From positions 1 through 37,607 of IMG/VR virus record IMGVR_UViG_3300021437_000053: a stretch of 37,607 nt of DNA; one strand, given 5' to 3'. Shown piece after piece: positions 5,104 to 37,607 of the stretch. Position 1 is the first letter of the stretch. Every line of letters begins with the position of its first letter. The position numbers were made by a program, and so were the translations under genes. The stretch comes from a virus. Under the pieces are notes generated by a model. The model was not told the origin of the DNA. It saw nothing but the letters and a program-made list of their open reading frames with translations, and did no database searches.

Positions 5104-5360
5104 ATAGGCCCCTTGTTGTCATTCAGAGATTGGCTTGCACCAAATTCGGGCATGTTTTGGCCTAAATCTGGGGCTCGACTTGCCAAGGCGGCACGGCGTA
5201 GGGTGGCTACATGCTCCCCGTACGTCACGCCATAAAGTTGCAGGTAAACCAGGTCACGCAGCAGGTCACTGACAGTGCAATCCGCATGACCCGCTCGCCT
5301 TCTGAACAGCGCCGCCGCTTCCTCATCAACATGCGTCGAGAGTTCAGTTATCAGCTTCAT
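5067..5360 (-). CDS. small RHH-like early protein, 97 residues
   Basis: The first 60 residues (MKLITELSTHVDEEAAALFR, then a CTVSDLLRDLVYLQLYG helix pair) resemble the strand-helix-helix of ribbon-helix-helix DNA-binding proteins. The following YGEHVATLRR is common in phage relatives of that sort. The C-terminal 35 residues look unstructured. The ATG overlaps the stop of the cro-like gene (ATGA at 5357-5360), so it is co-translated with it. A DNA-binding role is inference. Confidence 0.6.
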   Translation of the reverse strand: MKLITELSTHVDEEAAALFRRRAGHADCTVSDLLRDLVYLQLYGVTYGEHVATLRRAALASRAPDLGQNMPEFGASQSLNDNKGPICRPNTITSTHR

Positions 5361-5653
5361 GCCGCGCGCTCCTGCTCAGCGCGCAGCGCTTTAGATTGGC
5401 CTGCAGCAGCCGATATCACCGGTGCGTCCGGCCGCGCCATCAGCTCGGGCCAGATCTCCCACCAGTCTGTTGGGCGCAGATCCCAGCGCATCACGGCGCC
5501 AGAGGTGGCGCGTTCGATGCCGGCGCAGTAATCGGATGGGACTCTTCCTCGCTTCAACCACATGAACGGCGCGCTGTACGAAACCTTGCATGCGGAGGCA
5601 ATTGCAATGTTTCCGACTAGATCGACAGCTTTTCGGAGTGCGGGGCTTTCCAT
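5357..5653 (-). CDS. YdaS/Cro-like repressor
   Basis: 98 residues. The order LRKAVDLVGN...ACKVSYSAPFMWLKRGRVPSDYCAGIE with the ATSGAV..WDLRP.DW..IWPEL ending is the standard pattern of YdaS_antitoxin/Cro-like phage regulators: a helix-turn-helix of about 60 residues followed by the DLRP motif. It is divergent from the CI-like gene with 73 bases between the starts, which carry the operators. It heads the leftward early operon and is expected to shut off the lysogenic promoter. The -10-like GATAGA lies only 8 bases before its ATG, so the message may be leaderless or nearly so. Confidence 0.8.
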   Translation of the reverse strand: MESPALRKAVDLVGNIAIASACKVSYSAPFMWLKRGRVPSDYCAGIERATSGAVMRWDLRPTDWWEIWPELMARPDAPVISAAAGQSKALRAEQERAA

Positions 5654-5664
5654 GCCCGAAATCT

Positions 5665-5731
5665 ATCACGATCGTGATATCACAAGCAACACCAACGTGT
5701 TGACGCTATCAGGTTCAATCACAAGCGTGAA
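5665..5731. promoter_or_regulatory. cro/cI operator region
   Basis: A perfect 14-base palindrome, ATCACGATCGTGAT, lies at 5665-5678, a half-site ATCACAAGC at 5679-5687, and an imperfect copy ATCACAAGCGTGAA at 5718-5731 overlaps the repressor GTG start. The general form is ATCAC-N4-GTGAT. A leftward promoter can be drawn as TTGCTT, 16 bases, GATAGA on the minus strand, with the palindrome between the two boxes. The same palindrome appears at 7685-7698 in another promoter. Confidence 0.75.
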
Positions 5732-6176
5732 CACACTCGCAGACCGACTGAAATACGCACGTGAAGCACTGGGTTGGAGTCAGGAATACCTGGCCCAAAA
5801 GGCCGGTGTGTCGCAAGGCACGATCGGCAATGTCGAATCAGGACTTCGCAAACAGCCCCGCGACCTCGTGGAGATCGCAACAGCGATGGGCGTGAATGTC
5901 GAATGGCTGAAAAACGGCAAAGGCCCGATGCCAACACTTCCCACATCCGGGCCAGCTCCAGTGCGACATGCCCTTGATGCAGACCAGCAAGCCGCGACAC
6001 TGGCACAGGCGTTGCCGGTGGTGCTCGACGCCCTGGCCGGCCTGACGCCCGGCCGCTGGGGCATGGTGATGTCCGGGCTGCAGCCGCTGGCCGGGCACCC
6101 GGAGATGCGCGACGACGTCATCGCCGACGTGCTGCCGCTGCTCACTGCCGCGCCCAGCAAACGCATCGGGACATGA
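5727..6176 (+). CDS. CI-like repressor, short form
   Basis: 149 residues from the GTG at 5727. The frame is open upstream but would run through the operators. Residues about 4-65 form an HTH_3/XRE domain: LADRLKYAREALGWSQEYLA, then KAGVSQGTIGNVESG as turn and recognition helix, then the typical VNVEWLKNGKGPM linker. The rest (about 75 residues) is Ala/Leu-rich and helical. There is no S24/LexA-type peptidase domain and no Ser-Lys dyad, so RecA-stimulated self-cleavage is not expected. Induction may be through an antirepressor or another route. It is divergent from the cro-like gene, and its TGA overlaps an ATG of a 41-codon frame in the structured RNA region. Confidence 0.8.
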   Translation: MNTLADRLKYAREALGWSQEYLAQKAGVSQGTIGNVESGLRKQPRDLVEIATAMGVNVEWLKNGKGPMPTLPTSGPAPVRHALDADQQAATLAQALPVVLDALAGLTPGRWGMVMSGLQPLAGHPEMRDDVIADVLPLLTAAPSKRIGT

Positions 6177-6384: not shown

Positions 6385-6588
6385 ATGCAAGTTTTCAGAC
6401 GGTCAATGATGATGGTAGCTGCCGCCCTGCTGCTCACCACGACTTCAGCATCCGTGCTGCAAGGGTGTGGTGGTGGCGGTGGCGACGGCTGCTGCAAGGT
6501 GTGCCAGACAGGCAAGGCCTGCGGGGATTCATGCATTGCCGCCAACGCCACATGCAACAGTCCATCAGGGTGTGCATGCAACCAATAG
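6385..6588 (+). CDS. small Cys-rich lipoprotein
   Basis: 67 residues with a good ribosome site (TTGAGGAG) before the ATG. Residues 1-27 form a lipoprotein signal (MQVFRR, a hydrophobic MMMVAAALLL core, lipobox LQGC). They are followed by a Gly-rich linker and a Cys-rich domain with nine cysteines (CCKVCQTGKACGDSCI...CACNQ). The KACGDSCI..TC..P.GCAC pattern recurs in small secreted proteins of many proteobacteria, function unknown. It is probably anchored in the envelope of the lysogen. It lies in the accessory block downstream of the structured RNA, with its own hairpin behind it, so it reads as a lysogenic-conversion gene. Confidence 0.75.
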   Translation: MQVFRRSMMMVAAALLLTTTSASVLQGCGGGGGDGCCKVCQTGKACGDSCIAANATCNSPSGCACNQ

Positions 6589-6609
6589 TCCGACAACGGC
6601 GGCATGACG

Positions 6610-6631
6610 GCAGTGCAGGCGTCTGCACTGC
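6610..6631 (+). terminator. hairpin behind the lipoprotein gene
   Basis: Perfect 8-bp stem, GCAGTGCA (6610-6617) and TGCACTGC (6624-6631), with a 6-base loop. No T tract follows, so termination would be weak or factor-dependent. Confidence 0.4.
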
Positions 6632-6703
6632 GTGTGACCGATCTGACGATCACCGGGCGCCAATCAGTACACACACCATGATCATGCAACCACATCTTGC
6701 GTT

Positions 6704-6723
6704 ACATTGACCCGGTTCAATGT
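6704..6723. promoter_or_regulatory. inverted repeat upstream of the toxin-antitoxin-like pair
   Basis: ACATTGA-CCCGGT-TCAATGT, two 7-base arms, lies 30 bases before the ATG at 6754. A palindrome CATGATCATG lies just upstream at 6677-6686. Autoregulatory operators in this position are usual for toxin-antitoxin pairs. No clear sigma70 boxes could be assigned. Confidence 0.45.
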
Positions 6724-6753
6724 TGCAATGCAGCACATCAACCAGGAGCCGCC

Positions 6754-6981
6754 ATGTCGATGGTCATCAAGAAAAATGTGCGTGTTAGCCTGCCGCCAGA
6801 CGATTTCTATCAGCCCATGACCTCGCGCATCCAGCGCCTGACCGATCCTGAGGTGAAACCCGCCATGGATGCCATGAAGGCGCGCATCAAGGCCGATCCT
6901 GCTTATGGCCAGGAGCTGCTGCGCAAGGCCGGCATCGTGGACGAGTATGGCAAGCTGACCAAGGCCTTTGGCGGCAATTGA
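6754..6981 (+). CDS. putative antitoxin, 75 residues
   Basis: The ATG at 6754 is chosen because it has a clean AGGAG ribosome site 6 bases upstream. An ATG at 6697 would run through the operator-like repeat. The protein opens MSMVIKKNVRVSLPPDDFYQ and continues as a helical, charged chain (LTDPEVKPAMDAMKARIKAD, then YGQELLRKAGI and YGKLTKAF). There is no known antitoxin domain that I can name. The short length, ending 15 bases before the ART-like gene, and an upstream inverted repeat suggest the antitoxin or immunity partner of that gene. Function is inference from context. Confidence 0.6.
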   Translation: MSMVIKKNVRVSLPPDDFYQPMTSRIQRLTDPEVKPAMDAMKARIKADPAYGQELLRKAGIVDEYGKLTKAFGGN

Positions 6982-6996
6982 TCCTGCGGCCCGCCC

Positions 6997-7587
6997 ATGT
7001 GGGATCTCTACAAGACACAGCCCTCGTTCGTTCTCGGTTTCCATGGCTGCGATGCCGACTTGGCGCGTCGGGTCGCCTCTGGCGAAGAGATGCTTGAGCC
7101 CAGCACCAAACCTTACGACTGGCTAGGCAGTGGCATCTACTTCTGGGAAGGCAGCCCGCATCGGGCCATGGAATGGGCCGAAGCCATGGCTAAACGCCCG
7201 AGCAGCAACCCGCGCCGGGTAAAGACACCTGGCGTGCTGGGCGCCGTCATCGACCTCGGGCACTGCTGCAACCTGATGGACAGCTCCGCCCTCGACGATC
7301 TGCGCGATGCATGGGACGTGTTGCAGCTCGCCGACGGTGAACTGCCTGAGAACAAGGGCAACACCGCCGACCGGCTCGGCAGGTACCGCGACCGCGCGGT
7401 CATCGAGCTGATGCACTCAATCCGCACCGAGCGCGGCTTGCCCGCTTACGACAGCGTCCGCGCGGCGTTCCCCGAGGGTGGCGAGCTGTACCCACAGGCC
7501 GGCTTCACGGCGCGCAGCCACATCCAGATCGCCGTCAGATCGCATGCGTGCATCAAGGGCTACTTCCTGCCGATCAAGCAGAAATAA
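6997..7587 (+). CDS. ADP-ribosyltransferase-fold toxin-like protein
   Basis: 196 residues. Near the N-terminus lie FVLGFHGCD (His16) and, 30 residues on, YDWLGSGIYFWEGSPHRAMEWAE (Tyr48). This matches the H...GxGIYF arrangement of PARP/diphtheria-toxin-like ADP-ribosyltransferases, in which His and Tyr grip NAD. Further conserved-looking blocks are GAVIDLGHC (82-90), RYRDRAVIELMH (129-140) and the C-terminal AAFPEGGELYPQAGF...HIQIAVR, where Glu160 or Glu163 could be the catalytic acid. It follows the small gene 6754-6981 by 15 bases with no good ribosome site of its own, so translation is probably coupled. A terminator at 7607-7630 closes the unit. An alternative is a phage-defence or superinfection-exclusion enzyme using the same fold. 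Confidence 0.6.
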   Translation: MWDLYKTQPSFVLGFHGCDADLARRVASGEEMLEPSTKPYDWLGSGIYFWEGSPHRAMEWAEAMAKRPSSNPRRVKTPGVLGAVIDLGHCCNLMDSSALDDLRDAWDVLQLADGELPENKGNTADRLGRYRDRAVIELMHSIRTERGLPAYDSVRAAFPEGGELYPQAGFTARSHIQIAVRSHACIKGYFLPIKQK

Positions 7588-7606: not shown

Positions 7607-7630
7607 AGCCCGCCCCGTGCGGGCTTTTTT
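7607..7630 (+). terminator. intrinsic terminator closing the toxin-antitoxin-like unit
   Basis: AGCCCGC (7607-7613), 5-base loop, GCGGGCT (7619-7625), then six T. A second dyad, ACGCCCA-GTCGC-TGGGCGT, follows at 7631-7649. Confidence 0.85.
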
Positions 7631-7660
7631 ACGCCCAGTCGCTGGGCGTGATGGCATTCA

Positions 7661-7701
7661 ATCACGATTGTGTTGACATCGCAAATCACGATCGTGATAA
7701 T
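7661..7701 (+). promoter_or_regulatory. repressor-controlled promoter of the rightward operon
   Basis: TTGACA at 7673-7678, 17-base spacer, GATAAT at 7696-7701: nearly ideal sigma70 boxes. The palindrome ATCACGATCGTGAT fills the spacer and the start of the -10 (7685-7698). A weaker copy, ATCACGATTGTGTT, overlaps the -35 (7661-7674), 24 bases upstream centre to centre. The perfect copy is identical to the one at 5665-5678 in the cro/cI region, so the CI-like repressor and the Cro-like protein should both act here. Confidence 0.85.
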
Positions 7702-8841: not shown

Positions 8842-9488
8842 ACAAGCGCACCTACACCCCCCAGCCCGGCAGCCTGCCGGCGCGCGTCTGCGCATTTTTT
8901 ACCCAGCAGCCTGATGAAGAGCTGGAGCCACTGGACATCGTCACAAAGTTCGATGCCATCCAGACGAGCGTTCAGTCGCAACTCAAGTTGCCCGTTGAAC
9001 ATGGCTTGCTGGCAATCCGCAAGAAAAACATCGGCAACAAAATCACCAGTGTCTATTGCGCCGGTCCAAAACTCACGCAAGGTCATGCAGCAACTGCACC
9101 AGCAGCCGCTCCCGCAGTAGAGCCGGCCACGCCGATCGCACGCCGATCCATCGACGACGCGACATCCACGGAATGGACAGCAGCATCACGCCAGGCGCTT
9201 GAGCAGATGCGAGCCAAGCCGCTTGAGTCAACCGCCACGGTGACCGACATCACTTACGAGCCGCTGGTCGAGAACACCACGAAAGCTGCCAGCGGAAAAT
9301 GGACGAAGCAACTGCAGGCAGTGTCTGCCCTGCCGATCACTGGACAAGGCCACCCGACCCAACGGTTCCCACGTGGAATCGGCAGATCGATCCAGAAAGC
9401 GATCCACACCTGGAACAAGCACCACCCTCAGAACAAGCTGCAAGCCCGGCTTCGGGGTGATCACACCATCGTGCAGCGGATCGCGTAA
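8838..9488 (+). CDS. winged-helix-like DNA-binding protein, 216 residues
   Basis: GTG start overlapping the previous stop (GTGA). Residues about 10-75 look like a winged helix: PGSLPARVCAFFTQQPDEEL, then TKFDAIQTSVQSQLKLPVEHG as helix-turn-helix, then LLAIRKKNIGNKITSVYCAG as wing. An Ala/Pro-rich linker follows (about 80-105). The C-terminal part is basic (GKWTKQLQAV...FPRGIGRSIQKAIHTWNK) and may also contact DNA. A regulatory role in the operon is inference. The stop overlaps the next ATG (TAATG). Confidence 0.6.
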   Translation: MNKRTYTPQPGSLPARVCAFFTQQPDEELEPLDIVTKFDAIQTSVQSQLKLPVEHGLLAIRKKNIGNKITSVYCAGPKLTQGHAATAPAAAPAVEPATPIARRSIDDATSTEWTAASRQALEQMRAKPLESTATVTDITYEPLVENTTKAASGKWTKQLQAVSALPITGQGHPTQRFPRGIGRSIQKAIHTWNKHHPQNKLQARLRGDHTIVQRIA

Positions 9489-10762
9489 TGCTGCGCACCC
9501 GCCTCACCCTCGGCGCTGCGGCGCTCGCCTCACTCATTGGCGTCGGCATGGCCGCTGCCGCTGCAGTGGAGCGTGGCGCCACACTGACCGATCGAACGCT
9601 GATCGTCGCTGTCGCTGTGGCGGTCACGCTCGGTGCCCACCTACTCCCGTCTGTCAGCCGTCGCGCTGACAGCTGGGTGTTGTGGTGCGTGTGTGTGGCA
9701 CTCACCGTCTACGGCCACGCCACGTTCTTCAGCGCGTCCGCTGCGCGGGCCGGCCGCGCCCGGGCTGAGGCAGTGCACCCCGACACCCGCCACCAGGCGC
9801 TGCGCGAGCAACTGGCCGGCATCACCGCCCGGCCGCTCGCGGCCATCGCCGCCGAGGTCGCCAGCGCCCGCAACCGCCAAGCCGCCGCTGAGCTGGCCCT
9901 GGCGCGCTGCGAGGCCAAGACGCCTGGCAAGTGCGGCGCGCCGAAGCTGGCCGCGCAGCAAGCCCAGCAGCGCGGCCAGGCGCTGCAGACCGAGCTGACT
10001 GAGGCCCAGCGCGCCCAAACACTGCGCGAGCAGCTCACTACCGCCGCCGGCCAGCTCGACACCCGGCGTGCCGAAGCCGCCATCGACCCCGTGTCGGCCC
10101 AGATCGCCGCTTTCACCGGCCTGCCCGCCGCCAGCGTGCTCACGCTGGTGTCGGTGCTGTCCGCCGTGGTGGTCGAGCTGCTGGCCGCCTTGCTGTGGTC
10201 CGAGGCCCTCGCCATTCCTACCCAAGTTCACCACCAGGAGATCCCGCATGGATCACATCACACACCTGCCGCTGTCGCAGCTCACGCAGAGCCCGACGAA
10301 TCCGCGACGAGCCTGCTCGCCCGCATCGCTCGACGAGCTCGTGCAGAGCATTGCATCACAGGGCCTGCTGCAGCCGATCACGGTGCGCCCGATCGTGCAG
10401 GAGGACATCAACCACCAGCAGGGCGAGCAGGCCGACGGCCGCCCCAGCTACGAAATCGTGTTCGGCCAGCGCCGGTACCAAGCCGTGCATCGGCTCGGTC
10501 TGGAGACAATCGCCTGCATCGTCCGCGCCATGACCGACCAGCAGGCCAGCGAAGCGCAGATCCACGAGAACCTGGAGCGGGATGGAATCCACCCGATCGA
10601 GGAGGGCGACGCCTACCGGTCGTTGATCGACCAGCACGGCATGAACATCAGCGACTTGATCGCTACTACCGGCAAGCCGCGCACGCACATCTACAGCCGC
10701 CTCAAGCTGGCCACCGGCCTGAGCGAACCGATGCGCCGCCTGTGCTTGGCCGGCACACTTGA
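9488..10762 (+). CDS. membrane protein with coiled coil; reading frame runs on into parB
   Basis: Residues 1-253 look real. Three hydrophobic spans lie at about 7-27, 37-54 and 62-80, then a long Ala/Gln/Arg-rich coiled coil at 90-200, and a fourth span at about 212-238. This is like small phage inner-membrane proteins with a cytoplasmic rod. The frame does not stop there. It continues 171 codons out of phase with the ParB-like gene to 10762, with an Arg/Pro/His-rich composition typical of a shadow frame. Either the stop has been lost, a frameshift is present near 10200-10248, or the overlap is genuine. Treat the end coordinate as uncertain. No family recognised. Confidence 0.55.
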   Translation: MLRTRLTLGAAALASLIGVGMAAAAAVERGATLTDRTLIVAVAVAVTLGAHLLPSVSRRADSWVLWCVCVALTVYGHATFFSASAARAGRARAEAVHPDTRHQALREQLAGITARPLAAIAAEVASARNRQAAAELALARCEAKTPGKCGAPKLAAQQAQQRGQALQTELTEAQRAQTLREQLTTAAGQLDTRRAEAAIDPVSAQIAAFTGLPAASVLTLVSVLSAVVVELLAALLWSEALAIPTQVHHQEIPHGSHHTPAAVAAHAEPDESATSLLARIARRARAEHCITGPAAADHGAPDRAGGHQPPAGRAGRRPPQLRNRVRPAPVPSRASARSGDNRLHRPRHDRPAGQRSADPREPGAGWNPPDRGGRRLPVVDRPARHEHQRLDRYYRQAAHAHLQPPQAGHRPERTDAPPVLGRHT

Positions 10763-11993
10763 TGCAGAAACCGCGCTGCTGGTGGCTCGCATCCCCAGCC
10801 CGAGCCTGCAGATGCAGGCGGCCGACGCGGTGCAGGGCAAAAGCTACCGCGAGGCCAAGCTCATCATTTCCGGCAAATACCAGACTGATCTGCGCAACGC
10901 AAAATGGGATCTGCTCGACGCAACGCTGGTCGAGTCGGCCGGTGACTGCCACAACTGCCAGCACCGCAGCATCAACGACAAGAGCCTCGACAGCAGTACA
11001 GACGTCTGCACATCGCCCGACTGCTACGCCGCGAAGCGCCACGCCCACGGCCGCCGCATGCTGGACAACCTGGCCGCCGATGGCTGGATAGTGACCGACA
11101 TCCTGCCGACACTCTCAGAGCGCATCACGATGACCGGACCGCTGCTAAGCACCATCGACCTGCTCAGCCCCGCACATCCGCACGTCCTGAAAATGCGCCG
11201 GGCTGCTCAGGACAACACCGGAGATGCAATAAAGTTCATATTGAACGCCGAAGCGACCGAAATCTCGCGCCTCTCCCTGGCTCGCACCCGCCCTGAGGCC
11301 TCGAATCCTTCACCCGAGGGGGGAGGGGATGACGAAGCCGAAGAAACGACGATGGCAACGCCGAGGGACAAGAGCCACGAGGAACCCAGCCCGCTCACGC
11401 GGGGGGAAGGGGACAGAACAGGGGGTGAACACGGCCTGCCGGCCGTGGGTGACGTGCCGGGTGATCAGCGCACGGTCACCACCGAGGTCAATGACCTGGT
11501 GATGCGTGTCCTGCGTGACCGTGGTCAGCGGGAATACACCGACCTCGTGTGGATTTGCGCGGCTTTGGTAGAGCTGGCGACCGAGCAAACGCGTCGGGCG
11601 ATCGGGATCCCGACGCACTCGGTCTTTGAATCGAGAGCCGACACGCTTGCGCACCTCAGGGGCCGATCGGCCGACGAACTCGGCCGCGTCGCGCTAGCCT
11701 GCGCCATCGACATGATCGATCTGTGGACCGACGACATGTACACCGTGCTGCCACTCATCCACCTGCGCCTGAGCGGGGGGGGATCAATCCAGACCAACGA
11801 CGCCGGCCTGACGGCCGACGATGACCAGGATGTGAATGAGTCGGCCCCGCGCGCTCGACCGCTCAAGCGCTCGGTCAAGTACCGGCACCCGACCACCGGT
11901 GAGACCTGGTCCGGTAAGGGCCTCCAGCCCGCTTGGTTCAAGCGGGAGATGGACAACGGCCGTTCGATCAGCGATTTCAAGGTGCATGCATGA
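10248..11993 (+). CDS. ParB-like protein with C-terminal H-NS-type DNA-binding motif
   Basis: 581 residues. The ATG at 10248 has AGGAG 9 bases upstream. Residues 1-125 form a ParB/Spo0J N-domain: LSQLTQSPTNPR, SLDELVQSIASQGLLQPITV, FGQRRYQAVHRLGL (the GxRR CTP/DNA clamp motif at 73-77) and IHENLERDGIHPIEEGDAY. A helix-turn-helix follows at about 130-160. Four cysteines (234, 237, 254, 259) in CHNC...CTSPDC could bind zinc. After a disordered linker (about 355-420) and a helical domain, the last 40 residues contain KYRHPTTGETWSGKGLQP, which matches the YrdP.TG.tWSGrGr.P core of the H-NS C-terminal domain. No ParA partner is visible. The likely role is DNA binding/spreading in early regulation or replication. 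Confidence 0.8.
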   Translation: MDHITHLPLSQLTQSPTNPRRACSPASLDELVQSIASQGLLQPITVRPIVQEDINHQQGEQADGRPSYEIVFGQRRYQAVHRLGLETIACIVRAMTDQQASEAQIHENLERDGIHPIEEGDAYRSLIDQHGMNISDLIATTGKPRTHIYSRLKLATGLSEPMRRLCLAGTLDAETALLVARIPSPSLQMQAADAVQGKSYREAKLIISGKYQTDLRNAKWDLLDATLVESAGDCHNCQHRSINDKSLDSSTDVCTSPDCYAAKRHAHGRRMLDNLAADGWIVTDILPTLSERITMTGPLLSTIDLLSPAHPHVLKMRRAAQDNTGDAIKFILNAEATEISRLSLARTRPEASNPSPEGGGDDEAEETTMATPRDKSHEEPSPLTRGEGDRTGGEHGLPAVGDVPGDQRTVTTEVNDLVMRVLRDRGQREYTDLVWICAALVELATEQTRRAIGIPTHSVFESRADTLAHLRGRSADELGRVALACAIDMIDLWTDDMYTVLPLIHLRLSGGGSIQTNDAGLTADDDQDVNESAPRARPLKRSVKYRHPTTGETWSGKGLQPAWFKREMDNGRSISDFKVHA

Positions 11994-12469
11994 CCCCGCG
12001 CCGCCCACTCAACGACAAGGCCCGCGCCATGCGCGACACCCGCGCCGTGCTCATGAGCAGCATGTGCCTGATCGCCAGCATGCCCGACGGCACGCCGTGC
12101 GCCGATGAGCTGCAATTCTTGTTCAAGGTCGCCAGGGTGATGCAGATCGGCCTGGCGGGCATTGGCGTCCGTCACGGCCGCATCTGGGACGCGATCGATG
12201 CCACGGTCGAGAGTTGCCAACATATGCTGCGCAATGGTGGCCGCTGGCGCGCCGATTTGGCCGACGCCGTGCTCATGGGCCAGCAGGCGCTTGCCAAGGC
12301 GCAGCTGATGCTGCCGGCAGATGCCGACTTGACGCCGGCACTCAGGGTCGCGTCGCACGAGCTTGACGCGCTCACCCGAACAGCGGTCGAAGTCGCGGCG
12401 CCGGCTGATCTGGCTTGGCATGCGCGGCAGATCGTGCAGCGCATGGGGTGGGCAGGAGGCGCATCATGA
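11990..12469 (+). CDS. unknown helical protein, 159 residues
   Basis: ATG overlapping the ParB stop (ATGA). All-helical look: basic start MTPRRPLNDKARAMRDTRAV, then QFLFKVARVMQIGLAGIGVR, WDAIDATVESCQHML, DAVLMGQQALAKAQLML and a C-terminal HELDALTRTAVEV segment. No membrane spans are certain and no family is recognised. It belongs to the rightward operon directly after the ParB-like gene. Confidence 0.6.
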   Translation: MTPRRPLNDKARAMRDTRAVLMSSMCLIASMPDGTPCADELQFLFKVARVMQIGLAGIGVRHGRIWDAIDATVESCQHMLRNGGRWRADLADAVLMGQQALAKAQLMLPADADLTPALRVASHELDALTRTAVEVAAPADLAWHARQIVQRMGWAGGAS

Positions 12470-12892: not shown

Positions 12893-12909
12893 CGGCTTCA
12901 TGGTCGTTG

Positions 12910-14568
12910 ATGCTGGGGTGCGAGGTGAGTCCATCGGTCTATAGCTACTTGAGGTTTTCGGACCCCCGCCAGAGTGCCGGGCACAGCGCCGAGCGGCAGT
13001 TGCAGTACGCCGCACGTTGGGCGGCTGAACGCGGCATGCAGCTCGACGCAGCGCTATCGATGCGGGACGAGGGATTGTCGGCCTACCACCAGCAGCACAT
13101 CAAGTCTGGGGCGTTGGGGCTGTTCCTAGCAGCGGTCGGCGAGGGCCGCATTGTGCCCGGCTCGGTGCTGATCGTCGAAGGTCTGGACCGCCTGAGCCGC
13201 GCCGAGCCTATCCAGGCCCAGGCCCAACTGGCACAGATCATCAATGCTGGTATCACTGTGGTGACGGCAAGCGACGGCAAGGAGTACACCCGTGAGGGGC
13301 TCAAGGCGACGCCGATGGATCTGGTCTACAGCCTACTCGTGATGATTCGCGCCCACGAAGAATCGGATACCAAGAGCAAGCGCGTTACCGCAGCGATCCG
13401 CCAGCAGTGCGAGCAGTGGCTGGCCGGAACCTGGCGCGGCGTGATCCGCAACGGCAAAGATCCCGCATGGCTGCGATGGGATGGCGCAGTGTGGATCGTG
13501 GACGATGCGCGCGCCGAGGCTGTTCGGGCCGCGCTCGATTTGTTCCGATCCGGCCACGGCGCGGGGCGGATCGTGCAGCGGCTGGCCGCTGCCGGCCTGT
13601 CAACCACCGGCCGCACGATGACAGCCAGCCACATCTACAAGCTGGTCCGCGCGCGCTGGCTGCGCGGCGAGAAAGAGATTGATGTCGGCGGCGAGACCTA
13701 CCGTCTGCCCGGGTACTACCCGGCACTGCTCACGCCGGCCGAGTGGGACGAGCTGCAGTTGCTTGCCGACGATCGTGGTCGCCGGCGCGTGAAAGGAACG
13801 CTGCCGCACATCGTCACCGGCATCGGCATCGCGCGCTGCGGATACTGTGGCCAGGCCATGGTCGGGCAGAACCTCGAAACGAAGCCCCGCCTGCCGGACG
13901 GACGCATCCGAGACAGCTACCGGCGCCTGCTGTGCTGCGGCAAGGCGATCGGCCATCCATGCACAGTGTCAGGGTCATGCTCAGTCGCGCCCATCGAGCA
14001 TGCGCTGCTGACCTACTGCTCGGATCAGATGCGGCTCGACGCGCTGCGCGGCGACGCTGACCGCAGTTCTGCACCACGCGCACAGATCGCGCAGGCGCGC
14101 CTGCGCATTGCCGAACTGCAACGGCAACTGGATCGCATCACCGACGCGCTGACCAGCGATAACGAGGCAGCACCACTGGCGTTCCTGCGCCGAGCACGCG
14201 ACCTGGAGCGAGAGATTACAGCCGAGCAGGCGCGACTTGAAACCGCTGAACGTGAACTGGCTGGCGTGACCGGTCAGGCTCTCACGCACGACCAAGCGCA
14301 ACGCTGGGCAGCCCTGCGCGAGGCTGTCGCTGCCCAGGACTACGACGCCCGGGTACAAGTGCGACAGATGATTGCCCAGACGTTTGCAGCGATCATCGTC
14401 TATCACGCCGGGCGCGATGCCCAGCGCCAAGGGCCGATTGACCTGGTGCTACAAGCCAAGGGCGGCGCGCCGCGCTGGCTGCGCATCGACCGCACTACCG
14501 GCGAGATGCTCACGGGGATCGATCTAGCTACTCCGCAGCACCATCCAGCGGCGTCCACCCAGACATGA
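12910..14568 (+). CDS. large serine integrase
   Basis: 552 residues from the ATG at 12910; a GTG at 12925 preceded by GGGG is an alternative start. The resolvase-type catalytic domain begins YSYLRFSDPRQSAGHSAERQ with nucleophile Ser17, followed by the GSVLIVEGLDRLSR block carrying the conserved Asp and Arg residues. Then come a recombinase domain (about 170-290, with TGRTMTASHIYKLVRARWLRG), a zinc-ribbon-like segment with Cys pairs (RCGYCGQAM, CC...HPC) and a long coiled coil (about 385-450), as in phiC31/Bxb1-type integrases. It performs site-specific integration without host factors. Its 3' end overlaps the convergent membrane gene 14528-14860 by 41 bases. Confidence 0.93.
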   Translation: MLGCEVSPSVYSYLRFSDPRQSAGHSAERQLQYAARWAAERGMQLDAALSMRDEGLSAYHQQHIKSGALGLFLAAVGEGRIVPGSVLIVEGLDRLSRAEPIQAQAQLAQIINAGITVVTASDGKEYTREGLKATPMDLVYSLLVMIRAHEESDTKSKRVTAAIRQQCEQWLAGTWRGVIRNGKDPAWLRWDGAVWIVDDARAEAVRAALDLFRSGHGAGRIVQRLAAAGLSTTGRTMTASHIYKLVRARWLRGEKEIDVGGETYRLPGYYPALLTPAEWDELQLLADDRGRRRVKGTLPHIVTGIGIARCGYCGQAMVGQNLETKPRLPDGRIRDSYRRLLCCGKAIGHPCTVSGSCSVAPIEHALLTYCSDQMRLDALRGDADRSSAPRAQIAQARLRIAELQRQLDRITDALTSDNEAAPLAFLRRARDLEREITAEQARLETAERELAGVTGQALTHDQAQRWAALREAVAAQDYDARVQVRQMIAQTFAAIIVYHAGRDAQRQGPIDLVLQAKGGAPRWLRIDRTTGEMLTGIDLATPQHHPAASTQT

Positions 14569-15177: not shown

Positions 15178-15476
15178 CACACCACCACCGCACCAGCCCA
15201 ACGCGATGGCGTTGCCGTAGGGCCAGACTCGGCGCAAAGCTGCATGTAGGCCCAAGCCAGCGCATCCGCCCCGTCAGGCGGCGTACCCGATACCTGCACC
15301 TGGTCGATCGATAGGTGCGAGCGCCCAGCCCGGTGCATGGCCTCGCTGACATACCCACGCACGATGACAACACAAATCTGTGAGATCAGATCGATCGTTA
15401 TAGATGTGATGCGGTGGTAAGTGATTTTCGCGCCAGTGGCAGGGTCTTCAAGATCGATCTGCATTGCCATGATCAT
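15177..15476 (-). CDS. unknown tail-tip/late protein, 99 residues
   Basis: The ATG at 15476 has GAAGGA upstream. It starts MIMAMQIDLEDPATGAKITY, a beta-strand-rich first half (KITYHRITSITIDLISQICVV and onward), then GADALAWAYMQLCAESG. Small genes of this look lie between the tail fibre/J region and holins in related phages. Function unknown. Its stop overlaps the holin-like ATG. Confidence 0.6.
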   Translation of the reverse strand: MIMAMQIDLEDPATGAKITYHRITSITIDLISQICVVIVRGYVSEAMHRAGRSHLSIDQVQVSGTPPDGADALAWAYMQLCAESGPTATPSRWAGAVVV

Positions 15477-15487
15477 TTATCCTTCGG

Positions 15488-16246
15488 TTAAAGATTGGTC
15501 ACATCGACCAGGAATAACTTTCCAGCATTAGGCTGCCATGGACCAATTGGGCCGATGCCAGCGGGCAGCGTCTTGAATACCAAGCTACCAACATCAGCAC
15601 CAGTCGCTGATGTTCTGACACCTTCCCCAAAAATTGGATCAATAAGGCCGCCAGACACCACTCTATTTATCCTGGACATCGAAAGGCATGCCGCATACAA
15701 ACCTGCAGACACAACGATTGAGGCCGGGCCAGGATTGTTATCAGCAATGCCTACGATGCGAATCGGGTAGTTCGTGCTGTCAAATGTCAGCACACCGGCA
15801 TCGTTATAAACCTGCAGCCCAGCGCCAGATGTAGCCGTCAGCCGCATCTTGTCGAATACATACCAACCCACAGTCGCAGAGACGCCACTTCCTACAGCCA
15901 GGCGGTACGTGATGGTCGTGCCGGACCGGGTAGCCCCTTGCACCATGACGGTCACGTCAGACCGCAGGCATATCAGTGGCGTATCGACATCTGTGACCAG
16001 CAAGTCAACTGAGGTCGTGAACGTGGCTGTTCCCTTGTCTCTCAATCCAAGATTGACGGATGATCCATCAATCTGCAGATACCCATGATCACCGATGACT
16101 TGCAAACCTGCTGGCATGTTTTCGTAACCCTCTATTTGCTGCTGTGAGGCATTCACTCCATCTGATGCAATACCACCACCGCCACCGCCACCGCACCCAC
16201 TAATAAGTGCCGAAAATAATATAGCCAGGAACACCAGGACTCGCAT
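15488..16246 (-). CDS. tail-tip-type protein with lipoprotein signal, 252 residues
   Basis: The ATG at 16246 has GGAG 8 bases upstream. Residues 1-18 form a lipoprotein signal (MRVLVFLAILFSALISGC, Cys18) followed by seven Gly. From residue 44 (MPAGLQV) the chain turns into two repeats of a beta-rich domain, each opening with a GLQV...G.L.(F/I)D phrase (residues about 46-60 and 142-157), in the manner of small phage tail proteins of the DUF6453 type. The first 47 bases overlap the end of the previous gene. An internal ATG at 16117 would give a plain tail protein, so a membrane-anchored form and a virion form are both possible. Codon use is AT-richer than the neighbours. Confidence 0.65.
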   Translation of the reverse strand: MRVLVFLAILFSALISGCGGGGGGGIASDGVNASQQQIEGYENMPAGLQVIGDHGYLQIDGSSVNLGLRDKGTATFTTSVDLLVTDVDTPLICLRSDVTVMVQGATRSGTTITYRLAVGSGVSATVGWYVFDKMRLTATSGAGLQVYNDAGVLTFDSTNYPIRIVGIADNNPGPASIVVSAGLYAACLSMSRINRVVSGGLIDPIFGEGVRTSATGADVGSLVFKTLPAGIGPIGPWQPNAGKLFLVDVTNL

Positions 16247-16481
16247 TTGAATAGCTCCATGTAATGGTTGAACCAGAAATACCGATCACCGGGAAATTAG
16301 TGTTCGATGAGTTGTAATCAGGAAAGAAGGCAAAGAACGATTGATTGTTGAGTAGCGCATCACTGATAGCAGAGCCAGAAGCGCCCCCTGTCGCGACATA
16401 CCCAAGCACAAAGGCGAGCCGATCAGTCGCCAGGAACATCAGCCGCCCCTGCGCGTCGTAGCACTCCAGACCGGCCGCCAT
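16200..16481 (-). CDS. small tail-tip protein, 93 residues
   Basis: The ATG at 16481 overlaps the J stop (TGATG). It begins MAAGLECYDAQGRLMFLATD, the same GL-x-x-x-D..G.L opening seen in the next gene, and ends GVPGYIIFGTY, an ending common in phage proteins that follow J. It is probably attached to the tail tip or fibre. It is AT-richer than the tail genes upstream. Its end lies inside the signal-peptide coding part of the following lipoprotein gene. Confidence 0.6.
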   Translation of the reverse strand: MAAGLECYDAQGRLMFLATDRLAFVLGYVATGGASGSAISDALLNNQSFFAFFPDYNSSNTNFPVIGISGSTITWSYSNASPGVPGYIIFGTY

Positions 16482-19400
16482 CACCAGATCCCCAGGCGCA
16501 CGCGCATCACGCCCGCGCTGTCGTAAACGCGCACCTGTGAGTTGTCCAGCTCCATGCGCTGGCCGGTGGTGCTGCTGCGGATCGTGGTGGTGCCGTCTGA
16601 TGCGACCACGAAGCGGTTGTTGATGTTGAGTGTGCCGGCTGTGATGTCACCCAGGTTGGCCGAGATGGCCGAGAGCTGCGTCACGCTGATCTTGTCCGCC
16701 GTGAGCGTGTTGGTCTTGATGATGCCGCCGCTGATCTGCGTGCCGATGCCGGTCGGCACCCATGGCGAGGGGGCCGACTGGGCCGTCGACAGCGCAGGCG
16801 CACCCATCGGGCACACCGCGAACATCCAAGAATCAGCCTGCCCCGCCAGCGTCGCGAGCTTGCGATAGGTGAGCTGTGCCGTGACCGCGCCAGACGGCGC
16901 TGCGGCGACGGCGAACAGGCGCTTGTACCCGCTGAGCGCCTGGCCACCGCCGGTTTCATTGGCGTTGGTGGGCAGCGCTGTAGAGGTGATTACGGCCCCA
17001 GCCGCATCGCGCCAGGTCACGTAGCCGGTGACACTGCAGCGCAGCGCGCCAGAGTAAAAGCTGAACTCATACGGCTGGCCGCCCACCACAGGCCACGTCG
17101 GCCCAGCCATGTCGGCATATGCGGCACCATTGCCCGCCCCATCAACACCGGTCTGTCGCAGCGACAGCGTGTTAACACCGGTCAGTTGCCAAGCGGCGCC
17201 TGCCAGGTTCAAGCCGGATGTCAACACCCCAACCGGGATGACGGCGGCCGTTGAGAATATGTGCCCGTCGGCTTGCAGCAACCCGCCTGCATCCAGGTAA
17301 GTCGCCGCAAAAGCACTGTTCGGGATCAGATTTCCGCCCGGCAGGCCCGAGCTGATATGAGCCGCCGTCACGGCACCTGCTGCTATTTTGTCTGTTGTGA
17401 TTGCACTGGCGATGATCTTATCTGCAGTGATGGCATTGGCTGACACCTTATCTGTCGTAACTGCGCCCGCCAAAATCTTGCTGGAGATGATTGCACCATC
17501 GACAATCAGATCTGATGCAGCTTTTCTCAGTAGCCCAAATCGCCCAATTTGTATAGTGGCATTAGCAGCATAGCTAACATTTAACGCAGATGCCAGCCGC
17601 ATATATCTAGCATTGCTAGGTATCTTTGCAGTTTCATCATGCCCAAACGATAGGCTGTATTTTGTCCATATAGTAGGAGCAATAATATTAGCTATGAAAT
17701 AGCTATAATTTCCGTTACTTGGCCACCCAGTCGGATAACCCGCGCCAGACGGCTGCGCACTATTTGCATTAAGCAGTAACTTATTTGAGTCATACCACGC
17801 GACACCCAGAAAAATAGTTGCAGCAGTGGCGCCCACCTGTCTTATTACAGATTCAACAAAATAATTAAGTGTTGAATCAATTGGGATGTAATCAGCAGAT
17901 AACACGTCAACACGCACAGACGATACAGACTGCACTGCAGTCGCGCCGCCCATATCAAGATCAGAAATACCATTCGCCACGGATATGCCAGCACCAACCC
18001 ACGCCGACAAGTCGGAGCAATTTGGATCTGCGTTTAACTCGGATCCATTGCCTGTAACATACAACTTGTCAGTGCGTATAGCACCTGCCGATATCTCAGT
18101 CGCACTGACTGCACCAGCAGAAATCTTACCAGCGGTAACCGAATTTGCTGCCAATTCAGACGCGGTTATTGACCCAGCAGCAATTTTACCCGCAACAACA
18201 GAACCAGCCGCTATCTTTGGCGCAGTGATTGAATTGTCTGTGATTTGGGTTTCAACTACCTGCCCAGTCAAATCGGCCGCTGATACGCTGGCCACATACG
18301 CGGTGCCACTCCAGCGATACAGCTTGCCCTGCCAGGTCAGCGCCTCGGTCATCTTTGTAGTCGGCAGGCTTGGCGCCGTGCTGATGCTGACCGGCTCAAG
18401 GCCGGCGGCAAACTTGGCTGTGGTCACCGCGCCGTCGGCCAGCATCGTCGCGATCACTGACCCGACGTCCGGCACCATGCCGGCCACCGTGAACGTCAGC
18501 TCGCTGCTGTAGGCCAGACTGTCCTTGCCGAAGGCGTCATAGCCGGCCGCCTTGAGGTAGTACGTCGTCCCAGCAGCCAGCGCGGTACCGTTGGCGAGCT
18601 TGTTGATGGTGGTGAAAACGTCAGGCCCGTCGTACACCAGGTTGGCAGCCGTGGTGGCCACCGGCGAGGTCGTGGATACCCAGACCTGGATGCCCGCGAA
18701 GTCCAGATCGGCAGGCTGGGTGCACTGAAACGCTGCCTGCTTTGCCATCGGCGTGATGCTGAGCCCGGCGAGCGCACTGATCTGCGGATTGCTGGCGGTG
18801 ATCTGGGTCCAGGGCCCTTTGCGGCCGGTCACGGCCACTGGGCGCACGCGCAGGGCGATCGAGCGCCAGGGGCCGCCGTCGGCGCGTGCGTCATCGGCCG
18901 AGTAGGTCCACTGGCCCGAGGTCACGTTGCTGACGCTGCGTACCGTAGCCAGCGGTGCACCGGCCAGCGCCTCGACGTCGTAGCTGGTGGCGCCATCGAC
19001 CAGATCCCATTTGATCTGCGCTTCGCCGCCGACCCAGGGCTTGAGCAGTGCAAGGTTCTGCACGCCGGCCAGCGGCGCGCCGGTGATCAGGTAGGTGTAG
19101 GCCTGCACATCGGCCAGCGACTGCTGCCCCGCCCCGAAGATGTTGCGCGCGGTGAACTTGATGTAGATGGTGCGCCCGACCCACTGCTTGTCGTACGGGT
19201 AGCGCAGCACTGCATCGTCAAGCCGTGTGAACAGCGACCCGGCCGCATGCGCCGCAATGTCGGTGCCGTGCGCACCGCGCACCAGGTACTGCAGGTTGTA
19301 GGTGTTCACCCCGGTCAGCGTGGCGTCACGGTAGGCCAGCAGCTCGCCGCCTGCGTAGCACAGGGTGCTGAGGTCAGTGGCGTCCTGCGTGGTGCCGGCC

Positions 19401-37576: not shown

Positions 37577-37607
37577 AGCGCGTGAAAAGCGCGCTCGCGA
37601 ATGACCA
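37577..37607. other. right terminus: hairpin and repeat of the left end
   Basis: AGCGCG (37577-37582) pairs with CGCGCT (37590-37595) around a 7-base loop. The 13 bases CTCGCGAATGACC (37594-37606) repeat positions 1-13. Together with the iterons at 37518-37558 and the dyad at 2-18, this is the candidate cos region. Confidence 0.45.

Follow-up and report, generated by a model that had tools for sequence, protein, structure and literature searches.

A phage-encoded orphan ParB protein with a C-terminal H-NS DNA-binding domain

What use would a temperate phage have for a ParB-type protein that comes without a ParA and ends in the DNA-binding domain of H-NS, the host's silencer of foreign DNA? 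The question is raised by the protein here called parB-hns, encoded in a window that is the complete 37,607-base record of a virus in IMG/VR. The genes are those of a temperate tailed phage, with terminases, portal, and head and tail genes on the minus strand, together with a primase, repressors of the Cro and cI types, and a large serine recombinase (Table 1). Scans of the window for Rfam families and tRNAs were empty. The two ends of the record (1–13 and 37594–37606) share a 13-mer, CTCGCGAATGACC, possibly an end repeat. The lowest GC content of the phage lies in the tail genes at 15300–18100 (0.40 around 17,500, versus 0.64 overall), a region of possibly acquired DNA that is also a possible target of H-NS.

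Table 1. Features of the parB-hns locus, in window coordinates.
Feature	Position	Strand	Basis or remark
Cro-like repressor	5357–5653	-	phrog_35, E 4e-12
cI-type repressor ORF	5562–6176	+	PHROG transcriptional repressor, E 4e-17; true start probably internal
Operator palindrome TATCACGATCGTGATA, between cro and cI	5664–5679	+	
Operon promoter, TTGACA-N17-GATAAT	7673–7701	+	Sequence; homologous TTGACA promoter in L005
Operator palindrome AATCACGATCGTGATA, within operon promoter	7684–7699	+	Partial copy AATCACGATTGTG at 7660–7672
Upstream ORF	9488–10762	+	Frame continues open for 515 nt within parB; coding signal stops near 10240
parB-hns, 581-aa orphan ParB with C-terminal H-NS DNA-binding domain	10248–11993	+	
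ParB_N (CTPase-fold), residues 3–109	10254–10574	+	Pfam PF02195, E 9e-20
GQRR nucleotide motif, residues 73–76	10464–10475	+	Q74 corresponds to B. subtilis Spo0J E78 (alignment to 6sdk)
ENLER motif, residues 107–111	10566–10580	+	E107 and N108 invariant
ParB helix-turn-helix (HTH_ParB), residues 114–198	10587–10841	+	Pfam PF17762, E 4e-7
Four-Cys cluster, C234-x2-C237...C254-x4-C259	10947–11024	+	Invariant in 116/116 relatives
Helical region, residues 407–508, flanked by two disordered linkers	11466–11771	+	AlphaFold2 model
H-NS C-terminal DNA-binding domain (Histone_HNS), residues 543–579, AT-hook loop WSGKGLQP	11874–11984	+	Pfam PF00816, E 2e-13
Downstream gene, ATGA overlap with parB stop	11990–12469	+	Without family match
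Large serine recombinase (integrase)	12907–14568	+	Pfam Resolvase/Recombinase; 55% to Burkholderia phage Bcep176

The parB-hns gene starts with an ATG at 10248, preceded by AGGAG, stops at 11991–11993, and encodes ParB_N, HTH_ParB, and Histone_HNS domains in one open reading frame, bearing out the original prediction of a ParB-like protein with an H-NS-type C-terminus. The GxRR motif and four-Cys cluster expected in the N-terminal half are both present: the motif reads GQRR, and the cysteines are residues 234, 237, 254, and 259, from which we infer a probable zinc site. The C-terminal residues fit the H-NS profile over its full length: the PF00816 match covers all 38 model positions and scores 50 bits, against a curated cut-off of 25.6. 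The protein also matches the ParB family TIGR00180, with an E-value of 8e-33. Pfam searches of parB-hns found neither the canonical ParB C-terminal dimerization domain, the place of which is taken by the H-NS domain, nor the N-terminal H-NS oligomerization domain, the N-terminus being that of a ParB.

Domain searches of both ends and structure prediction give the same picture, a ParB N-terminal half and an H-NS-family tail. In particular, sequence searches of the PDB lead from the N-terminal half to ParB, Spo0J, and Noc, and from the tail to Bv3F, Ler, and H-NS (2l92, 2lev, and 1hnr). An AlphaFold2 model, computed from an alignment of 63 sequences from which plasmid and phage-record rows were left out, has a mean pLDDT of 79.5 and comprises an ordered N-terminal half, a disordered segment (residues 357–408), a helical region (407–508), a second disordered segment (510–540), and an ordered tail. 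Foldseek matches the N-terminal half to CTP/CDP-bound M. xanthus ParB (7bnr, E 3e-13), Noc, and KorB. With the tail modeled alone, the five best PDB matches are Bv3F, Ler, H-NS (two entries), and MvaT; the best E-value, 0.016, is weak because the domain has only 50 residues, and the probabilities for the first three matches are 0.99–1.0.

Single-sequence searches of genome and viral collections returned no relatives of parB-hns. An alignment of the ParBs of phages VarioGold and Aval and of a plasmid-form prophage of Comamonas odontotermitis, used as query, returned 436 viral and 42 genomic loci, and the best 80 of the 436 viral loci together with the genomic loci yielded 116 distinct proteins. 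The query proteins, like phrog_18726, share with parB-hns the Cys4 N-terminal half, a position between cI and integrase, and the lack of a ParA; the VarioGold and Comamonas proteins end, as judged by eye, in a KOW/SH3-like sequence rather than in H-NS, and the Aval protein has no H-NS match. The ParB of PRTRC systems (TIGR03734) also matches parB-hns beyond the ParB core (residues 15–276, E 4e-25), with a score of 88 bits where the cut-off is 279, and the C-termini differ.

The four cysteines are invariant in this family, and the C-terminus is variable. An H-NS domain is present in 24 of the 116 proteins; the other C-termini, classified by eye, include KOW/SH3-like ends, Lys/Arg-rich tails, and ends with an AWPFP or an [RY]C.KT.DM[FL]E motif. 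In a quick maximum-likelihood tree of the N-terminal halves, the distribution of the H-NS domain needs 13 gains or losses, of which at least 8 are forced by well-supported branches, and the number is unaltered when proteins cut at contig ends are dropped. The concern raised with the original prediction, that homologues might lack the H-NS end, thus holds for 92 of 116; the remaining 24 carry it through repeated gains or losses, which argues that it is a swappable module and not noise. One relative (L095) has its H-NS domain at the N-terminus, from the start Met (5992–6144); the two modules are combined there in a separate, independent way. Overall, parB-hns shares 78% identity with its nearest relative (L005), and identity changes from N- to C-terminus: 94.5% in ParB_N, 89% in the HTH, 84% in the Cys4 region, then 74%, 70%, 49%, and 64.5%, and 82.5% in the H-NS domain. 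The tail thus stands out as an island of conservation that follows variable linkers.

Two of the C-terminal motifs recur across the family. Many phage ParBs, whether or not they have an H-NS domain, terminate in the peptide [RY]C.KT.DM[FL]E (L006, L008, L017, L027, L028, L037, L048, L054, L059, L064, L074, and L097). This peptide is similar to the beta-clamp binding motif QADMF of DnaE, and it may tie the ParB clamp to the replisome. The AWPFP motif recurs especially in Oxalobacteraceae (L001, L003, L012, L021, L091, L092, L099–L101, L105, L106, and others).

The nucleotide motifs, GERR and ENLQR in reference ParBs, read GQRR and ENLER in parB-hns. The binding Arg, E107, and N108 are kept, and R76, E107, and N108 are invariant in 116 of 116 relatives. 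We regard parB-hns as probably a CTP-using DNA clamp; against CTP binding counts a 2025 survey of ParB-fold fusions, in which NTP binding was absent from 17 of 28 purified proteins of this fold (PMC12704722). Regarding hydrolysis, E107 corresponds to the second catalytic Glu of B. subtilis, E111, and is kept, and the second position of GxRR, a Glu in 102 of the 116 relatives, is a Gln in two, parB-hns and L005. The corresponding B. subtilis substitution, E78Q, yields a protein that binds and clamps DNA with no appreciable CTP hydrolysis and with wider spreading (PMC8494293), and VirB, which has one of the two hydrolysis residues, shows almost no CTPase activity (PMC10770331). By analogy, parB-hns would, like VirB, be left with one of the two residues, and is predicted not to hydrolyze CTP. 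Elsewhere in the family, the hydrolysis Glu of GERR is replaced by Ala or His in 12 members (L015, L086, L087, L090, L097, L098, L109, L112, L114, L115, L121, and L123), and CTP hydrolysis may have been lost several times among these phage ParBs.

Sequence comparison also indicates when the protein would be made. The palindrome within the operon promoter differs by one base from the palindrome between cro and cI, with 0.08 such window matches expected by chance. In L005, the surroundings of the promoter are conserved, and the operator reads TTAGCCATTAGCTA, with a second near-identical copy present; TTAGCCATTAGCTA also lies between the cro and cI genes of L005, and the DNA-binding part of those genes has changed too. 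The window and L005 have thus switched both operators together, indicating that the promoter is bound by the phage cI or Cro. Repressor control of the operon was part of the original prediction; the shared operators support cI as that repressor well, and they are strong evidence that parB would be silent during lysogeny and expressed early. At 57 family loci, a gene of the cI type precedes parB on the same strand. The joint exchange in L005 also identifies the palindromes at 5664 and 7684 as cI/cro operators, and they were rejected as candidate parS sites. Between cI and a terminator-like hairpin (about 7607–7630, by eye), outside the cI-controlled operon, lies cargo at 6385–7587: a small Cys-rich lipoprotein-like ORF (6385–6588), a 75-residue ORF, and a 196-residue ORF matching phrog_14664.

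Less can be said for the membrane and winged-helix neighbors that were predicted along with the operon: the upstream ORF has hydrophobic stretches as judged by eye, and the pair has no meaningful Pfam or PHROG match. We considered and rejected a frameshift or membrane-anchored fusion between the upstream ORF and parB, since the codon pattern shifts where parB begins and the overlap has accumulated substitutions in keeping with the parB frame. The upstream ORF of L005 is likewise open 515 nt into parB, and codon statistics indicate that the overlap is non-coding in that frame.

The absence of a ParA was confirmed: none (PF13614, AAA_31) was found in the window and 42 related records, with control genomes positive. 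The ParA-binding motif LG[RK]GL is absent from parB-hns and present in 1 of 116 relatives. A palindrome search for parS returned a single weak candidate, CCAGCGTGCTCACGCTGG (10131–10148), inside the upstream gene and 100 bp before parB. L005 shares this palindrome, in a segment where substitutions are unusually rare, and it is a candidate loading site.

The tail of parB-hns resembles the H-NS of likely host lineages. Host genomes encode H-NS-domain proteins above the family cut-off in eight of nine cases, mostly stand-alone, and the ninth has a sub-threshold match only. For five genome-linked prophages with an H-NS-type ParB, compared with the H-NS of the five hosts, the host's own H-NS was the best of the five in four cases, with 2 of 120 permutations scoring as high; the test comprises five pairs and a 45-residue domain, with phage and host lineage confounded. 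Further pairs were sought in 300 genomes of Burkholderiales and in 294 from the family of the Duganella host; H-NS-type ParB is rare there, with one additional case (L164), and the test stays at five pairs. For example, the Paracandidimonas H-NS reads ...TGDTWTGRGKAPRWI and its prophage protein ...TGDTWTGRGKPPRWI, and the H-NS proteins of Rhizobacter, Piscinibacter, and a Burkholderiales MAG read ...W(S/T)GRGLQPxWLK, like WSGKGLQPAWFK in the window. The H-NS domain of the window is nearest to that of Piscinibacter (54%), in agreement with the ParB tree, where the Rhizobacter and Piscinibacter prophage proteins are sisters of parB-hns. The AT-hook loop reads K-G-L, versus Q-G-R in E. coli H-NS; the Q/R-G-R loop is absent from the tail of parB-hns, the classical Arg being missing. 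Since related Burkholderiales stand-alone H-NS proteins read R-G-L, K-G-L is a host-lineage variant. A Leu at the third place of the loop is also present in L071, L097, and L113. Binding to AT-rich DNA and an architectural role as a nucleoid protein, both originally proposed for parB-hns, are putative.

Orphan ParB-type CTP clamps with roles outside partition include VirB of Shigella, KorB of RK2, Noc, and BisD of ICEclc, all of which have, like parB-hns, ParB_N and HTH domains and act without ParA. They keep the ParB-type C-terminal dimerization domain, whereas parB-hns is without it, and neither an H-NS domain nor a Cys4 module, both present in parB-hns, is reported for any of them. VirB is a ParB-type H-NS antagonist that loads and slides (PMC10770331). 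Ler is H-NS-like in its C-terminal domain only and displaces H-NS (PMC7074111). Ler and further antagonists of the H-NS family that mobile elements carry have, like parB-hns, an H-NS-type C-terminus on an unrelated N-terminus within a horizontally acquired element; in contrast to Ler, parB-hns has a KGL instead of a VGR loop, and its N-terminus is a ParB clamp.

By analogy with these proteins, we tentatively favor, with somewhat less than even confidence, the reading that parB-hns is an orphan ParB clamp outside partition, a VirB-like clamp with a Ler-like tail, that acts as a counter-silencer. Once cI is off, by induction or infection, parB-hns would be made early, would load at a parS-like site via its HTH, and would close as a CTP clamp and slide. 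With one of the two hydrolysis residues replaced, the E78Q-equivalent substitution would give it a long residence on DNA, as is thought for VirB. The tail, presumably captured from a host-type H-NS, would have the DNA preference of the host silencer, and parB-hns would for that reason displace or prevent H-NS filaments on phage DNA, perhaps also at host loci; it might either keep host H-NS off phage DNA or reach H-NS-covered regions. The host-matched H-NS domains and the stand-alone H-NS of the hosts count for counter-silencing. Against it count the single weak parS candidate, the K-G-L loop without Arg, the missing dimerization domain, and the phage genome itself, which averages 64% GC and has few AT-rich tracts. 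Most relatives, moreover, do the basic job of the family without an H-NS domain, so antagonism of H-NS would be at most an added function. More doubtful is the broader proposal that temperate phages of Burkholderiales repeatedly grafted the H-NS domain of their own host onto a ParB-type CTP clamp, creating a counter-silencer under cI repression that would load at a single site, slide from there, and be directed to just that DNA which the host silencer would cover.

The main rival to counter-silencing is a DNA-organizing role, in which parB-hns would be an early DNA-architecture, replication, or recombination factor, its clamp coating phage DNA and its H-NS domain serving as an interchangeable, non-specific anchor, with no antagonism of H-NS. 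The exchange of C-termini among generic-looking DNA-binding ends would fit such a factor, as would the 92 relatives that work without H-NS and the early operon of VarioGold, where the family member lies near an annotated ssDNA-binding protein and a dNMP kinase. There is, however, no reason to expect a generic anchor to look like the H-NS of its host, and the KOW/SH3-like and Lys-rich ends were called by eye; we consider this role unlikely. An improbable variant on regulation is a KorB-like long-range repressor or silencer, whose clamp would spread from an operator while the tail extends silencing over genes of the phage or the host, for example in shutting off the early operon. The H-NS oligomerization domain, needed for silencing filaments, is absent from parB-hns, which makes silencing less likely, and repression would keep parB off in the lysogen, the very stage at which a silencer would be of most use. 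For this reading, the N-terminal half matches KorB structures among others, and KorB itself regulates plasmid genes over long range with the help of CTP, according to the ParB-fold survey (PMC12704722); the L005-conserved palindrome 100 bp upstream of parB could serve as an operator but lies within coding sequence.

That parB-hns is instead a partition protein, the ParB of an episomal form borrowing a host ParA, would accord with the strength of the TIGR00180 match (E 8e-33) and with the deposition of one relative, from Comamonas, as a plasmid. We regard it as very improbable: none of the 43 records has a ParA, the ParA-binding motif is confined to one relative, the phage has a serine integrase, cI repression would turn parB off in the lysogen, and partition requires CTP hydrolysis (PMC8494293), a step that parB-hns is predicted to have lost. 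Scarcely credible is a fortuitous or decaying fusion with a functionless tail; the tail follows a disordered and variable linker and lacks the AT-hook Arg, but it is a conserved island between the window protein and L005, it matches the PF00816 profile over its full length, and the H-NS domain recurs in 24 relatives.

Orphan ParBs, phage ParB-fold fusions, and H-NS-derived antagonists are each already known singly. In the open-access literature, we found no paper describing a ParB with an H-NS domain or naming both PF00816 and PF02195, and the main text of the 2025 survey of ParB-fold fusions describes no H-NS fusion and mentions H-NS once, in the title of a VirB reference (PMC12704722). Domain databases may list the architecture. 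ParA-less ParB clamps have a recognized role in gene regulation, and VirB counteracts H-NS; here the DNA-binding machinery of both opponents is naturally fused, which offers a ready-made test system for clamp versus silencing. The H-NS domain has been gained or lost repeatedly among these phages and is similar to the H-NS of the host, and the phage ParB family is one in which the C-terminus is an exchangeable module. If phages did graft host H-NS domains onto ParB clamps to make counter-silencers, VirB and Ler would be combined in one molecule.
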